From: Agromyces marinus
Lineage (GTDB): Bacteria; Actinomycetota; Actinomycetes; Actinomycetales; Microbacteriaceae
Assembly: GCF_021442325.1 (NCBI RefSeq)
Contig: NZ_CP087879.1
Location: forward strand, 248,001 to 312,000
Reading direction: 5' to 3'
DNA: 64,000 nucleotides
Numbering within the stretch: the first letter of the stretch is position 1; each line of letters begins with the position of its first letter. Position numbers and translations under genes: made by a program. Under the pieces are notes generated by a model. It worked only from the letters and a program-made list of their open reading frames with translations, was not told where the DNA came from and searched no databases. This document shows, piece by piece, positions 59,597-64,000 of this stretch.

Positions 59597-61474
59597 ATGG
59601 CGAAGACGTATCCGGACATCAGCGACCACGGCCTGATCGGCGACCTGCAGACTGCCGCCCTCGTCTCGACCGACGGCACGATCGACTGGTTCTGCTGCCC
59701 GCGATTCGACTCGCCGAGCGTGTTCGGTTCGCTGCTCGATCCCGAGCGGGGCGGGTTCTTCCGCGTCCGGCCGATCGGCGCCGAGTACGTCACCCGCCAG
59801 CTCTACCTGCCGGACACGGCGATCCTCATCACCAGGTTCCTCACCGATGCCGGAGTCGGCGAGGTGATCGACTTCATGCCCGTCGCCGACGGGGTCGAGA
59901 CGGATCGGCACGCGATCGTGCGCATGGTACGCGTCGTGCGCGGCGAGATGACCTTCGAGGGCGAGATCCAGCCGCGGTTCGACTACGGGCGCGCGCCGCA
60001 CCGGCTCGTCCGTTCCGGGGTGGGGGCGAAGTTCGTCTCGGACGACCTGACCATCACCCTGCACCGCGTGGGCGAGCCCGTCGTCCACGACGACGAGCGT
60101 GCGGCGCGGGTCGAGGTGGTCGGCGAGGGGGTGCGGGTCTCGATCACGCTGCGAGCGGGCGAGCTGACCGGGGTGATGCTCGAATCGGGGGATGTCGAGG
60201 CTCGCCAGATCTCGGAGGACGAACTCGTCGAGACGTTCCTCGCGACCAGGCGGTACTGGCGGGGATGGGTGGACCGGTCGACGTACACCGGGCGGTGGCG
60301 GGAGATGGTGACCCGGTCGGCCATCACCCTCAAGCTGATGACCTACGCCCCCACGGGCGCGCTCATCGCGGCGCCCACCGCGAGCCTGCCCGAGCAGGTC
60401 GGCGGTGGCCGCAACTGGGACTACCGCTACACGTGGGTGCGCGACGCCTCGTTCTCGGTGTACGCGCTGCTCAGCCTCGGGTACGACCGCGAGGCCGAGG
60501 CGTTCGTCGGCTGGCTGCTCGACCGCATCCACGAACAGCCCGGAGGCGAGGGCGGGCCGCTTCGGATCATGTACCGGGTCGACGGTTCAGCCGACCTCGA
60601 CGAGGCGGAGCTCGAGCATCTCGCCGGGTACCGCGGGTCGCAGCCGGTCCGCGTCGGCAACGGCGCCTCGGGGCAACTGCAGCTCGACATCTACGGCGAG
60701 GCGATGGACTCGATCCGGCTGGCCGACACGCACGGCGTCGAGCTCTCGCACGCCGGGTGGGTGAAGGTCCGATCGATGCTCGACTGGCTCTGCGACCACT
60801 GGGACACCCCGGAGGAGGGCATCTGGGAGACCCGCGGCGGGCCGCAGCGGTTCACCTACGGCAGGTTCATGTCGTGGGTCGCGCTCGACCGCGGCATCCG
60901 TCTCGCCGAGGCGCACGGCAGGCCGTCCTCGTTCACGAGGTGGATGCACGAACGCGACCGCATCTACGAGCGGATCATGGAGGTCGGATTCGACCCCGAA
61001 CGCGGTGCGTTCGTCCAGCACGAGGGAAGCGACGTGCTCGACGCCTCCCTGCTGCGGATGCCGCTGCTCGGCTTCGTGACGCCCAACGATCCGATGTGGC
61101 ACTCGACGCTCGACGCGATCGACGAGCAACTCGTCTCCGACAGCCTCGTCTACCGCTACGACCCCGAGGCCGCTCCCGACGGGCTCGCCGGCGGCGAGGG
61201 GACCTTCACGCTCTGCTCGTTCTGGTACGTCGACGCGCTCGCCCGGTCGGGGCGACTCGACGAGGCGCGCCTCGTGTTCGAGAAGATGCTGACCTACGCC
61301 AACCACCTCGGCCTGTACGCCGAGGAGATCGGCCTCACTGGCGAGCAGCTCGGGAACTTCCCGCAGGCGTTCAGCCACCTCGCACTCATCAACGCGGCCG
61401 TGAACCTCGACTACCAGCTCGACCACGGGTCGGGCGACGTCGGGCCGGTGCTCCGTCGCCGGCGCATCGACTGA
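59597..61474 (+). CDS. Glycoside hydrolase family 15 protein (glucoamylase/trehalase-like)
   Basis: The 625-residue cytoplasmic protein starts ISDHGLIGDLQTAALVSTDG (GH15 N-terminal beta-domain) and has an alpha/alpha-barrel with NWDYRYTWVRDASFSVYALL, EGIWETRGGPQRFTYGRFMSW (catalytic acid Glu region) and YAEEIGLTGEQLGNFPQAFS (catalytic base Glu region). Actinobacterial members of this type include trehalases and alpha-glucosidases. It lacks a signal peptide. ATG 59597 is preceded by GGAGGGGACGCGC. The substrate is unresolved. Confidence 0.9.
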   Translation: MAKTYPDISDHGLIGDLQTAALVSTDGTIDWFCCPRFDSPSVFGSLLDPERGGFFRVRPIGAEYVTRQLYLPDTAILITRFLTDAGVGEVIDFMPVADGVETDRHAIVRMVRVVRGEMTFEGEIQPRFDYGRAPHRLVRSGVGAKFVSDDLTITLHRVGEPVVHDDERAARVEVVGEGVRVSITLRAGELTGVMLESGDVEARQISEDELVETFLATRRYWRGWVDRSTYTGRWREMVTRSAITLKLMTYAPTGALIAAPTASLPEQVGGGRNWDYRYTWVRDASFSVYALLSLGYDREAEAFVGWLLDRIHEQPGGEGGPLRIMYRVDGSADLDEAELEHLAGYRGSQPVRVGNGASGQLQLDIYGEAMDSIRLADTHGVELSHAGWVKVRSMLDWLCDHWDTPEEGIWETRGGPQRFTYGRFMSWVALDRGIRLAEAHGRPSSFTRWMHERDRIYERIMEVGFDPERGAFVQHEGSDVLDASLLRMPLLGFVTPNDPMWHSTLDAIDEQLVSDSLVYRYDPEAAPDGLAGGEGTFTLCSFWYVDALARSGRLDEARLVFEKMLTYANHLGLYAEEIGLTGEQLGNFPQAFSHLALINAAVNLDYQLDHGSGDVGPVLRRRRID

Positions 61475-61770
61475 GGGCCGGCGGGCCGGCGCGGTTCGCT
61501 CGCCCGTCGTCCGTCGCCCGTTCGCCGTTCGCCGTTCGCCCGTTCAGGATGCCGGTGGCGACACGCCGTACGTCGGGCGGTCCGGCACGGCGTGTCGGGC
61601 TGATCGTCCTGAATGGCGTGGCGTGGCGTGGCGAGCTGGCCGAACGGCGAGCCCCGGCTGGCTGGGAATTCCCTCGGGATATCGGCCTTCGACGTCGACC
61701 GGAGTTCAGCCGGGTGTCGCCCTCCGGATACGCTCGGAGACCTGATTCCCGCGGAACGAGGGGTCGGCAG
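61475..61770. repeat. Non-coding stretch with nested inverted repeats and short tandem repeats
   Basis: No gene is seen in these 296 nt. CGCCGTTCG (61530-61538) with CGAACGGCG (61641-61649), TTCAGGA (61543-61549) with TCCTGAA (61607-61613), and CGACACGCCGT (61559-61569) with ACGGCGTGTCG (61587-61597) are nested in order and could fold into one long hairpin. Short tandem repeats flank it: TTCGCCG-type units at 61521-61540 and GGCGT units at 61615-61632. Confidence 0.6.
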
Positions 61771-62967
61771 ATGACGGATGAACGGGGCGCCAGACGCGTG
61801 TCGGCGCGGTTCGTCCACCATGCGAGCGCGGCCGCGGCGATGGTCGCGATCGCGGCGGCAGTCGCGGTGGCCGTCGGGAACCTGTTCGTGCACATGGCCC
61901 ACAGCGCCGCGCACGCCGCCGGCATCGCGCATCCGCACTTCGACCTCGTGTCCGTGTCGGTGGCGGTCGTGTTCGCGGTGGCGTCGCTGACCGCGCTCAC
62001 GCTCGCCACGGTCGGAAGCGGCCGCCGCGGCGGCAGGTGCCGGATCGCGTGGGTGTCGCCGGGCCTCGGCGCGATCGCGAACGCGTCGGTGTGGGCGACG
62101 ATCGCCGCGCTCGCCGTGGTGAGCGCGGCCGAGGCCTTCGCCCCGTTGCCGGGTGGCCACCTCGCGGCGTGCGCGGTGCTCGCCGGAGGGCTCGGCGCGG
62201 TCACCGGAATCGTGCATCGGCGCGCGCACCACCAGCCGATATACCGGTCGTTCAACCTCGTCGCGATGCTCCTCGCCGCGGGTGCGCTCGCGAGCATGAG
62301 CCTGACCCGGACCGGGGCGTGGTGGGCGCTGAACTTCAGCACCCTCGGCACCTCGGACGACGTCGCCGCGACCTGGTTCAACGCGGGTCTCGTGTTCTCC
62401 GGTGCGGGCATGGCCGTGATGGCCGGCCCCCTCTCCCGCGGACTCGCCCGACCCGAGCACCGTGCGCGCCGCGCCGCGCCGGCCGTGGTCCAGACGCTGA
62501 TCGGGGTGATCGGCATCTCGCTTGCCGGGGTCGGCCTCGTGCCGATCGACGCCGACGAAGTCGTGCACAACGTGTTCGCGAGCGCCGCGGGCGCGGCGTT
62601 CTTCGTGCTGGCGGCGGGCACCCCGTGGATGGTCGAGCGGATGCCGCGGCGCCTCAGGGCGGCATCGTTCGCGTCGCTCGGGCTCGAGGCCGCGGCGTGG
62701 ATCGCCTACGACCGACTCGGGTGGGCGTCGCTGACCGTGTTCGAGGTGGTCGCGTTCGCGCTCGTGTTCGTCTGGCTGATCACCCTCGTCGTCACGACGC
62801 ACCCGGAGCGCGAACCGTCGCTCGGAGCCGCTGCCGAGGCGATCCGGGCAGGAGGGGTTGTGCTCGGCCCGGCGATCCGCGAGCGTGTCCGTACGGCGAC
62901 GGTGCCCGTGATGCCGCTCGCGGGCGGTGCCCCGGGAATGGCGCCGCGGCTGGTGCGTTCCAGTTAG
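61771..62967 (+). CDS. DUF998-like multipass membrane protein
   Basis: The 398-residue protein has about ten hydrophobic segments and FSTLGTSDDVAATWFNAGLVFSG, resembling the DUF998 pattern in which a conserved short loop precedes a membrane helix. The function of DUF998 proteins is unknown. ATG 61771 is preceded by GAGGGGTCGGCAG. The 59 C-terminal residues are hydrophilic. It stands alone between the GH15 gene and the small acetyltransferase. Confidence 0.75.
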   Translation: MTDERGARRVSARFVHHASAAAAMVAIAAAVAVAVGNLFVHMAHSAAHAAGIAHPHFDLVSVSVAVVFAVASLTALTLATVGSGRRGGRCRIAWVSPGLGAIANASVWATIAALAVVSAAEAFAPLPGGHLAACAVLAGGLGAVTGIVHRRAHHQPIYRSFNLVAMLLAAGALASMSLTRTGAWWALNFSTLGTSDDVAATWFNAGLVFSGAGMAVMAGPLSRGLARPEHRARRAAPAVVQTLIGVIGISLAGVGLVPIDADEVVHNVFASAAGAAFFVLAAGTPWMVERMPRRLRAASFASLGLEAAAWIAYDRLGWASLTVFEVVAFALVFVWLITLVVTTHPEREPSLGAAAEAIRAGGVVLGPAIRERVRTATVPVMPLAGGAPGMAPRLVRSS

Positions 62968-62998
62968 ACACGGGTCTTCGGACCGGAAGGGGGTCGAC

Positions 62999-63316
62999 GT
63001 GACCGACGACGAGGTCGAGATCGTGCGCGATGACGAGGCGCGACGCTACCGGTTGCTGCTCGGCGGCGCGGAGGCGGGTCGTGCGGAGTTCCGGTTGCGG
63101 GAGGGCAGCATCGTGTTCACCCACACGATCATCGATCCGGCGTTCGAGGGTCGGGGATTGGGCTCGCGGCTTGCGCGGTTCGTGATCGAGGACGCGATCT
63201 CCCGCGGCGAGCGCATCGTTCCGCGCTGTCCGTTCATCCGCGGGTGGCTGCTCAAGCACCCCGGCTACGAGGACGCGATCGAGTGGCCGGAGCGGCGTGC
63301 CGTGGGCGGGGCCTGA
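62999..63316 (+). CDS. Small GNAT-like N-acetyltransferase (YjdJ/NATD1 type)
   Basis: The 105-residue protein has the acetyl-CoA loop in IIDPAFEGRGLGSRLARFVI (R/QxxGxG/A) and PRCPFIRGWLLKHPGYEDAI at the C-terminus, diagnostic of the minimal YjdJ-like GNAT fold. GTG 62999 is preceded by GGAAGGGGG. The acceptor is unknown for the family. Confidence 0.9.
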   Translation: MTDDEVEIVRDDEARRYRLLLGGAEAGRAEFRLREGSIVFTHTIIDPAFEGRGLGSRLARFVIEDAISRGERIVPRCPFIRGWLLKHPGYEDAIEWPERRAVGGA

Positions 63317-63343
63317 CGTCCGAGGGGATCCTCCGGTTCGTGA

Positions 63344-63357
63344 CCCCCGCTCGGGGG
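63344..63357 (+). terminator. Small hairpin after the GNAT gene
   Basis: CCCCC (63344-63348) and GGGGG (63353-63357) form a short stem with a GCTC loop, 28 nt after the stop codon. Confidence 0.4.
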
Positions 63358-63395
63358 CGCTGCGACCGCCGCATGCGCGGCGATAGAATTCCTCA

Positions 63396-63570
63396 AAGCC
63401 CGAGTCGGGGCCCGACCCGACCATTCGCCGTGCAGCGGTGATCGCGACCTGATGTCCCAAGCGGTCGCTCGGGAGGTGGCTCGCCGAGCTCAGTTCGGGT
63501 CGCTCGGCGGGGAGGGCCTCCCCGTGAGGCCGCGGTGGGGCGGGAGGTAGGGTTCCCGTCCCACCGTCTT
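63396..63570 (+). ncRNA. Candidate structured non-coding RNA
   Basis: A good -10 box TAGAAT (63384-63389) has no coding gene downstream on the plus strand. The following 175 nt contain five hairpins in series: GTCGGG/CCCGAC (63404-63421), GCGACC/GGTCGC (63444-63468), GCCGAGC/GCTCGGC (63483-63508), GGGGAG/CTCCCC (63509-63523) and a 13-bp terminal stem, 63533-63545 with 63554-63566, followed by TCTT. The stretch ends just before the convergent MarR gene. I do not recognise a known RNA family. No clear -35 box is visible. Confidence 0.5.
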
Positions 63571-63574
63571 CATG

Positions 63575-64000
63575 TCAGTCGGCGTGTGCCTGCTGCGCTT
63601 CGCGCAACCGATCGCACAGGGCCGTGAGCTTGCGCAGTTCGTCGTCGTCGAGCGCGGTGCCGACGTGCTGCGTGATGCCCTGCATGTGGTGGATGGCCGC
63701 GCGCCGGAACTCCTGGTAGCCGGTCGAGGTGAGCTCGACGATCGTTCCGCGCCCGTCGAGCGGGTCGTCGACCTTCTCGACCCATCCTCGGCCGACGAGG
63801 CGGTCGACCAGCCGGCTGACGCTCGGCTGGGAGATGAGCACGTGCCGGTTGAGGTCCTTGAGCCGGAGGCGACGGGATGGCGCCCGGCTGATGTTGAAGA
63901 GCACGTCGTACTCGTTCAGCGACATGACCTCGGTCGGGAACTCGGCCGAGAGCTCCCGCATCACCGCGACCTGGGCGCGGAACAGCGCCTCCCACGCCGC
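63575..64000 (-). CDS. MarR-family transcriptional regulator (partial, N-terminus outside window)
   Basis: The frame is open to the window edge: residues AWEALFRAQVAVMRELSAEF precede the first internal ATG and fit the usual MarR first helix, so the start lies beyond 64000. The winged helix is clear: LRLKDLNRHVLISQPSVSRL followed by VDRLVGRGWVEKVDDPLDGRGTIVELT. The C-terminal dimerisation helices end at AQQAHAD. Its target genes are probably outside the window. Confidence 0.88.
   Translation of the reverse strand, partial: AAWEALFRAQVAVMRELSAEFPTEVMSLNEYDVLFNISRAPSRRLRLKDLNRHVLISQPSVSRLVDRLVGRGWVEKVDDPLDGRGTIVELTSTGYQEFRRAAIHHMQGITQHVGTALDDDELRKLTALCDRLREAQQAHAD

Follow-up and report, generated by a model that had tools for sequence, protein, structure and literature searches.

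6S RNA forms a single long rod with a large bubble at its center. 6C RNA carries runs of C, and the ANTAR-target RNAs are paired hairpins in whose hexaloops position 1 must be A and position 4 must be G. The Ms1 RNA of Mycobacterium and Streptomyces adjoins genes for a HAD hydrolase and an oxidoreductase, according to PMC9130861.

We have analyzed 64,000 nucleotides of DNA (contig NZ_CP087879.1, positions 248,001 to 312,000; termed here the window) from Agromyces marinus, a member of a genus that includes soil bacteria. At the right-hand end of the window the intergenic stretch 63384-63570 (+ strand), between a GNAT-type acetyltransferase gene and a convergent gene for a MarR-type regulator, contains a predicted RNA (Table 1) that has a partial likeness to each of these systems. 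Like 6S RNA it is independent, strongly folded and about 180 nt in length. The initial annotation had noted the closeness to 6S RNA in size, and this holds, but the architecture is different. The Agromyces RNA has a closed 5′ domain and three separate 3′ hairpins, and its comparative structure contains no long rod with a large central bubble. It shares with Ms1 RNA (PMC9130861) an actinobacterial origin, an intergenic location, a transcription unit of its own and weak distant sequence conservation, but it lies between GNAT (PF14542) and MarR (PF12802) genes and has another architecture. Like 6C RNA (RF01066) it is a small actinobacterial RNA with hairpins, yet its conserved loops are G-rich. 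Lastly, P6 bears a conserved hexaloop as ANTAR-target RNAs do, but on inspection of alignment A6 there is a single conserved hexaloop, GUAGGG, with G at position 1, in one hairpin.

The absence of a family signature noted in the initial annotation is borne out by Rfam. Searching the whole window with Rfam 15 at the gathering score gave three tRNAs and nothing at the RNA, and the same threshold gave no match at six RNA loci; below threshold, the three copies scanned gave chance-level matches alone. RF01066 was not found in the one genome searched, its own, with limited sensitivity in that a control search gave a below-cut-off match in 1 of 14 genomes. In the available part of PMC9130861, Microbacteriaceae, Agromyces and MarR are not named, and a word search of the accessible text of PMC11077062 gave no match. 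The RNA is also unmentioned among the matches listed from the open literature, from work on small RNAs of Microbacteriaceae, Clavibacter, Agromyces and Leifsonia, and from surveys of structured RNA, as far as the text of these sources was available. We conclude that this is very probably an unlisted RNA gene family, present in part of the Microbacteriaceae, which is known in kind and new as a family within the literature and Rfam searched. To a bacterial family that has no comparable RNA in Rfam or the searched papers it adds an RNA gene family whose covariation is unusually clear. It is one further small RNA family, and introduces no new principle.

Table 1. Positions of the predicted RNA, its structural elements and the flanking features, numbered within the window
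Feature	Position	Strand	Remarks
GNAT-type acetyltransferase gene (PF14542)	ends 63316	+ (RNA strand)	upstream neighbor of the RNA
Promoter palindrome CCCCC-GCTC-GGGGGC	63344..63358	+	begins 40 nt ahead of the −10 box, with 25 nt between its end and the box; candidate activator site
−10 box TAGAAT (TACGAT in most relatives)	63384..63389	+	T1 51/51, A2 47/51, T6 49/51
Predicted RNA, about 173 nt	63396..63568	+	predicted start and end; homologues across the genus
P1, 5′ side, CCCGAG	63399..63404	+	long-range stem with 63468-63473; 94.1% of cells paired
P2 hairpin GUCGGG-GCCCGA-CCCGAC	63404..63421	+	first base shared with the last of P1
P2 loop CCCGA	63411..63415	+	predicted kissing partner of 63495-63499
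P3 region, variable hairpins	63422..63467	+	from the fold of the window sequence; poor conservation
P1, 3′ side, CUCGGG	63468..63473	+	partner of 63399-63404
P4 hairpin, 10 bp, loop UCAGUUCGGGUC	63480..63511	+	changes on both sides in 7/10 pairs
P5 hairpin GGCCUC/GAGGCC	63515..63531	+	changes on both sides in 6/6 pairs, in the model-fitted alignment
P6 terminal hairpin, 14 bp, hexaloop GUAGGG (63547-63552)	63533..63566	+	probable 3′ end
MarR-type regulator gene (PF12802)	stop at 63575, continues past window end	convergent to the RNA	downstream neighbor

The predicted RNA and its fold

The predicted transcript agrees in length with the 175 nt or so initially estimated, and the five consecutive hairpins noted there 3′ of the −10 box are found as P2 to P6. 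A terminal stem of 13 bp with TCTT had also been described. The stem is present, formed by 63533-63546 with 63553-63566, but it comprises 14 pairs, including two G-U pairs, and the TCTT of the following TCTTCA is no real U-run. A consensus scan of 60000-64000 found no intrinsic terminator, and no U-run follows P6. In G+C-rich actinobacteria the U-run is often weak, and we therefore do not count its absence as excluding a bacterial structured small RNA.

The RNA from the window folds at −103.8 kcal/mol (z = −3.04), and 1 of 200 dinucleotide shuffles is equally good. That minimum-energy fold pairs differently upstream of P6 from the comparative fold, which has an energy of −99.0 kcal/mol without the kissing contact. 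The weight of evidence for the RNA lies in its conservation rather than in the fold of a single sequence.

Distribution of the RNA

The sequence 63317-63575 was used as the blastn query against 60 Agromyces genomes, its own included. Matches were obtained in 53, mainly in the 3′ half of the query, with weak second matches in some; UUCGGGUCGC followed by GGGAGGUAGGG is common to all 53 copies. A covariance model applied to the seven blastn-negative genomes gave four diverged copies between GNAT and MarR, with E values of 2.2e-4 to 3.6e-3, bringing the total with the RNA to 57 of the 60. No copy was found by the covariance model in G005 and G017. The single match in G050 (77% complete) was judged to be chance, as was a second match in G015.

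A pattern scan gave 38 stretches, of which 32 are in Agromyces, three in Leifsonia and one each in Cryobacterium, Microterricola and Glaciibacter, and related copies adjoin MarR in other Microbacteriaceae. Model R1 matched 14 of 249 genomes of the family, five of these being Agromyces, in 4 of 85 genera. Model R3, built after removal of one antisense match of L047, was then run on 80 hand-chosen genomes (71 from other genera of the family, two copy-less Agromyces and seven from other families), scoring 107 candidates per genome and considering E values up to 0.1. Five matches were obtained at that limit. One was accepted (L147 in genome G119, E = 0.0027); it adjoins MarR, keeps GUUCGGG and carries UUAGGG at P6. 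The weak matches in G098, G092, G111 and G305 are missing both conserved loops and were judged to be chance. Outside the family there was no match to R2 in 248 genomes from the order or to R3 in 296 from the phylum, with 17 and 14 candidates scored per genome, a depth that would miss diverged copies. No match to the RNA was found on plasmids. All copies recovered come from a subset of the genera of a single family.

Covariation and the RNA strand

The core of the structure (P4, P5 and P6) was compared in 46 distinct Agromyces sequences. Pairing is retained in 97.0% of cells and 11 pairs have changes on both sides, giving 54 double-changed cells compared to 16.5 in shuffles, which here and below do not preserve the relatedness of the sequences. 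The full-length model including P1, P2 and the kissing contact was examined in 49 of 53 Agromyces sequences, using an alignment (A2) that was made without the structure and excludes the four sequences that have no recognized −10 box. There 96.7% of cells are paired, with 48 double-changed cells against 10.8 in shuffles. Over 31 sequences chosen from all types, 95.3% of cells are paired and 22 of 30 pairs are double-changed (94 cells against 24.0 shuffled). The model structure guided this alignment, which hence leans towards the model. When the pairing partner in this alignment is slid by 1-3 columns the pairing falls to 41-52%. P1 has an exchange of CG to AU at columns 14/111 in five sequences. 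In P2, columns 18/47 are occupied by UA, CG, UG or AU and columns 20/33 by GC or CG, and P6 has 98.6% of its cells paired with changes on both sides in 9 of 14 pairs. The predicted stems P1, P2, P4, P5 and P6 are held by compensatory changes. The absence of a transcript together with a lack of stem conservation in relatives had initially been named as evidence that would speak against the RNA; the stems are strongly kept by such changes, and the promoter elements are conserved alongside.

The distribution of G-U and A-C variants distinguishes the two strands. Read on the + strand, P4 and P6 have 130 G-U and 6 A-C cells, and 49 and 6 once two positions with G-U as their usual pair are removed. 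The G-U cells so far outnumber the A-C cells that the + strand is likely to be that of the RNA. P5 contains 16 G-U and 17 A-C cells, in poorly aligned columns. The antisense strand as the RNA is disfavored, the variants in P4 and P6 being G-U and not A-C on the + strand, with P5 neutral.

We are highly confident that this is a real RNA gene. At the level of sequence comparison, the stem covariation and the co-conserved promoter elements support the self-contained structured RNA unit that was proposed in the initial annotation.

Conserved loops and a predicted kissing contact

The core of the P4 loop, GUUCGGG, is present in all rows of alignments A1 and A6, and both this sequence and the GUAGGG of P6 are unchanged in 31 of 31 rows of A6 while the stems are rewritten. 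The P2 loop is complementary to that of P4. A stem of at least 5 bp combined with a loop match of at least 5 nt occurs in 42 of the 53 Agromyces sequences, which are related and not independent, compared to 52 of 1060 mononucleotide-shuffled sequences; the other 11 copies fail this test. In the Leifsonia, Microterricola and Glaciibacter copies, and in that of Agromyces G006, the P2 stem is GGAG/CUCC as opposed to GUCGG/CCGAC, and the loop is CCCGAA. The spacing of P2 and P4 in the Leifsonia/Glaciibacter-type and Microterricola-type copies (L062:1385-1520, L060:1343-1520) is fixed for each type, at 131 or 173 nt, despite sequence divergence.

In the predicted contact between the two loops 87.6% of cells pair; as the P4 loop is invariant, covariation is not seen. 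No clear partner for the P2 loop was seen in L052, L059, L067 and L084. In the diverged Agromyces type the candidate partner is either indistinct or lies inside the P4 loop itself, and our confidence in the kissing fold is slightly lowered by this. On balance there is a good probability that the typical Agromyces form adopts a kissing-loop fold. The loop-loop contact provides a concrete hypothesis for the fold, and there are two nearly invariant loops to probe.

The region between P2 and P4 in Leifsonia-type copies contains a frame beginning MEPEL, raising the question of whether the transcript encodes a short protein. Its AUG is preceded by GAAAGG, the frame is open in the type-B copies bearing the motif, and the start and end residues recur. 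However, the substitutions are flat over the three codon positions (e.g. 19/22/20 and 12/14/14), and of the changed codons 31 of 37 and 22 of 26 specify another amino acid. Moreover, L053 has the frame shifted, and the ATGGAGCCCGAACTC start is missing from typical Agromyces copies. With no coding constraint in this frame, the sole candidate examined in type-B copies, the MEPEL reading was rejected, and we regard a coding function for the transcript as extremely improbable.

Promoter elements

The −10 box had been described as lacking a following gene. The box is indeed there (Table 1), but a + strand frame of 197 amino acids does start at 63572, directly behind the RNA and opposite MarR; we have taken this for an artefact of high G+C content. 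A scan of 60000-64000 gave no consensus sigma-70 promoter and no consensus −35 element. All 51 anchored promoters among the 53 Agromyces loci have a CCC-N-GGG palindrome that begins 36-41 nt before the −10 box, a result favored by the preference given, where there were several −10 candidates, to one with an upstream palindrome. The strict pattern CCCC-N(3-5)-TCGGGGC-N(20-27)-TANNATTC occurs in 14 of the 60 genomes and always at the RNA locus, and the reversed control gave 0. The copy in the window does not conform to the strict pattern. By eye, the arrangement of palindrome and −10 box is also seen in the diverged Agromyces type and in Leifsonia, and is not evident in Microterricola-type copies. 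The RNA would therefore appear to have conserved promoter elements of its own, and the position of the palindrome suggests an activator site. With the fold hypothesis, the two loops and a promoter element seen in its strict form at the RNA locus only, the partner and the regulator can be sought directly.

The palindrome was also considered as an operator for MarR. A loose CCC-N-GGG match is present in 20 of 77 stretches upstream of MarR genes. Among the matches listed these often lie over the −10 region of MarR and do not repeat the arrangement at the RNA promoter, and this candidate was rejected.

Neighboring genes and the question of a cis role

GNAT lies upstream on the same strand as the RNA in 52 of the 53 Agromyces loci, a convergent gene lies downstream at most loci, and in the window P6, a strong hairpin, ends 8 nt before the stop codon of MarR. 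Together these would fit a bidirectional terminator or 3′ UTR shared between convergent GNAT and MarR genes, with hairpins that have no role of their own. Against this, there are promoter elements conserved between GNAT and the RNA, stems P1, P2, P4 and P5 covary as well as P6, and the G-U/A-C asymmetry in P4 and P6 favors a single strand. Furthermore, the RNA is kept at all 11 non-Agromyces loci searched, where GNAT was not found, and is present at all of the 20 Agromyces loci (of 53) where no MarR was found within about 1.5 kb. We therefore think a shared terminator unlikely.

Where MarR is found it is always convergent, in 33 of the 53 Agromyces loci and at 11 of 11 others, where it is 18-74 nt from the RNA. 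This constancy of orientation could be explained by cis-antisense regulation, with the RNA or its 3′ end pairing with the 3′ end of the MarR mRNA. Yet the RNA and the MarR frame share no bases, and the RNA is present in the 20 loci where no nearby MarR was found, while at two further loci MarR is separated from it by 509 and 1141 nt. Conversely, MarR occurs in 66 of the 85 genera of the family and the RNA was not detected in most of the MarR-bearing genera examined. Antisense control of MarR is accordingly rated as rather improbable.

The 197 amino acid frame opposite MarR raises another cis-acting possibility, that the RNA serves as leader or attenuator for a gene that follows it on the same strand, and in L002, L003 and L005 there are downstream genes of related sequence on that strand. 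But the downstream gene is convergent in the 33 Agromyces loci with MarR and probably in 16 of the 20 loci without a nearby MarR, where the best-scoring downstream frame by codon-position G+C is on the RNA strand in only four. No same-strand downstream gene is constant, and a leader function is most improbable.

Since GNAT or MarR was not found at many loci that carry the RNA, the RNA is not bound to any one neighboring gene. A role in cis is unlikely because no neighbor is constant, and it is somewhat probable that the RNA is a trans-acting regulator rather than a cis element.

A possible role in trans

Overall, the conserved features point to an independent gene that probably encodes a structured, non-coding, trans-acting sRNA of about 173 nt, with a compact kissing-loop fold and a P6 that displays GUAGGG. 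In such a scheme a putative DNA-binding protein at the C-rich/G-rich palindrome would switch on transcription under some condition. P1 would close the 5′ domain of the RNA, and the loop of P2 (CCCGA) would kiss that of P4 (GUUCGGG) to create a compact body. The terminal P6 hairpin would end the transcript and might present GUAGGG for recognition by a partner, either RNA or protein. Our analysis found neither a target of the RNA nor a protein that binds it.

One candidate partner would be RNA polymerase, the RNA acting like 6S or Ms1 RNA as a lineage-specific stand-in. Its size, its own promoter elements, its strong fold and the single main locus per genome are all in keeping with this, and 6S RNAs are stated in PMC9130861 to be widespread in bacteria except Actinobacteria. 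On the other hand, the pairing is mostly in separate 3′ hairpins in place of a long rod with a central bubble, there is no Rfam match at the gathering score, and the HAD hydrolase and oxidoreductase genes that adjoin Ms1 RNA (PMC9130861) are missing at the locus. Polymerase binding of this kind seems doubtful. We would hold out equally little expectation for a more far-reaching version of the trans-acting sRNA, in which the compact kissing-loop scaffold would show the invariant GUAGGG to a protein and, with a dedicated activator, serve as the lineage's global regulator in the place of 6S or Ms1 RNA.

A second element upstream of MarR

Upstream of MarR (L108:6140-6280, − strand), about 140-280 bases past the right-hand end of the window, lies a further RNA-like element that is strongly conserved. 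In order, it comprises a promoter-like CGTTACC...TTATATATT, TGTTTGCTGTGGC, TGATTGCAGGACACTCTTGGTGCAAGG and, last, a strong hairpin. The motif at its core is found no more than 600 nt before MarR in 67 of 77 MarR loci, among them loci of genera in which the first RNA was not detected. There is no credible Rfam match to the element. A blastn search over the order found it in 10 of 119 genomes, eight in the family and two, weakly, outside. Contact between the first RNA and this element was assessed in 28 genomes, where the duplex energies were no better than the best of 20 shuffled partners, and such a contact was rejected; the duplexes are near whole-molecule, making this a crude test.

Upstream of the second element in the genome of the window there is a CCCCGCATTCGGGGC palindrome (L108:6300-6340, − strand) that resembles the promoter of the first RNA. 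It is shared by L004 and missing in most other Agromyces copies among those listed. In some Agromyces (L018, L030) the loop of the terminal hairpin of the second element and the 3′ half of that hairpin are repeated about 100 bases downstream, and a genome of another genus (G271; L172 and L177) carries the element twice, with about 10 kb between the copies.
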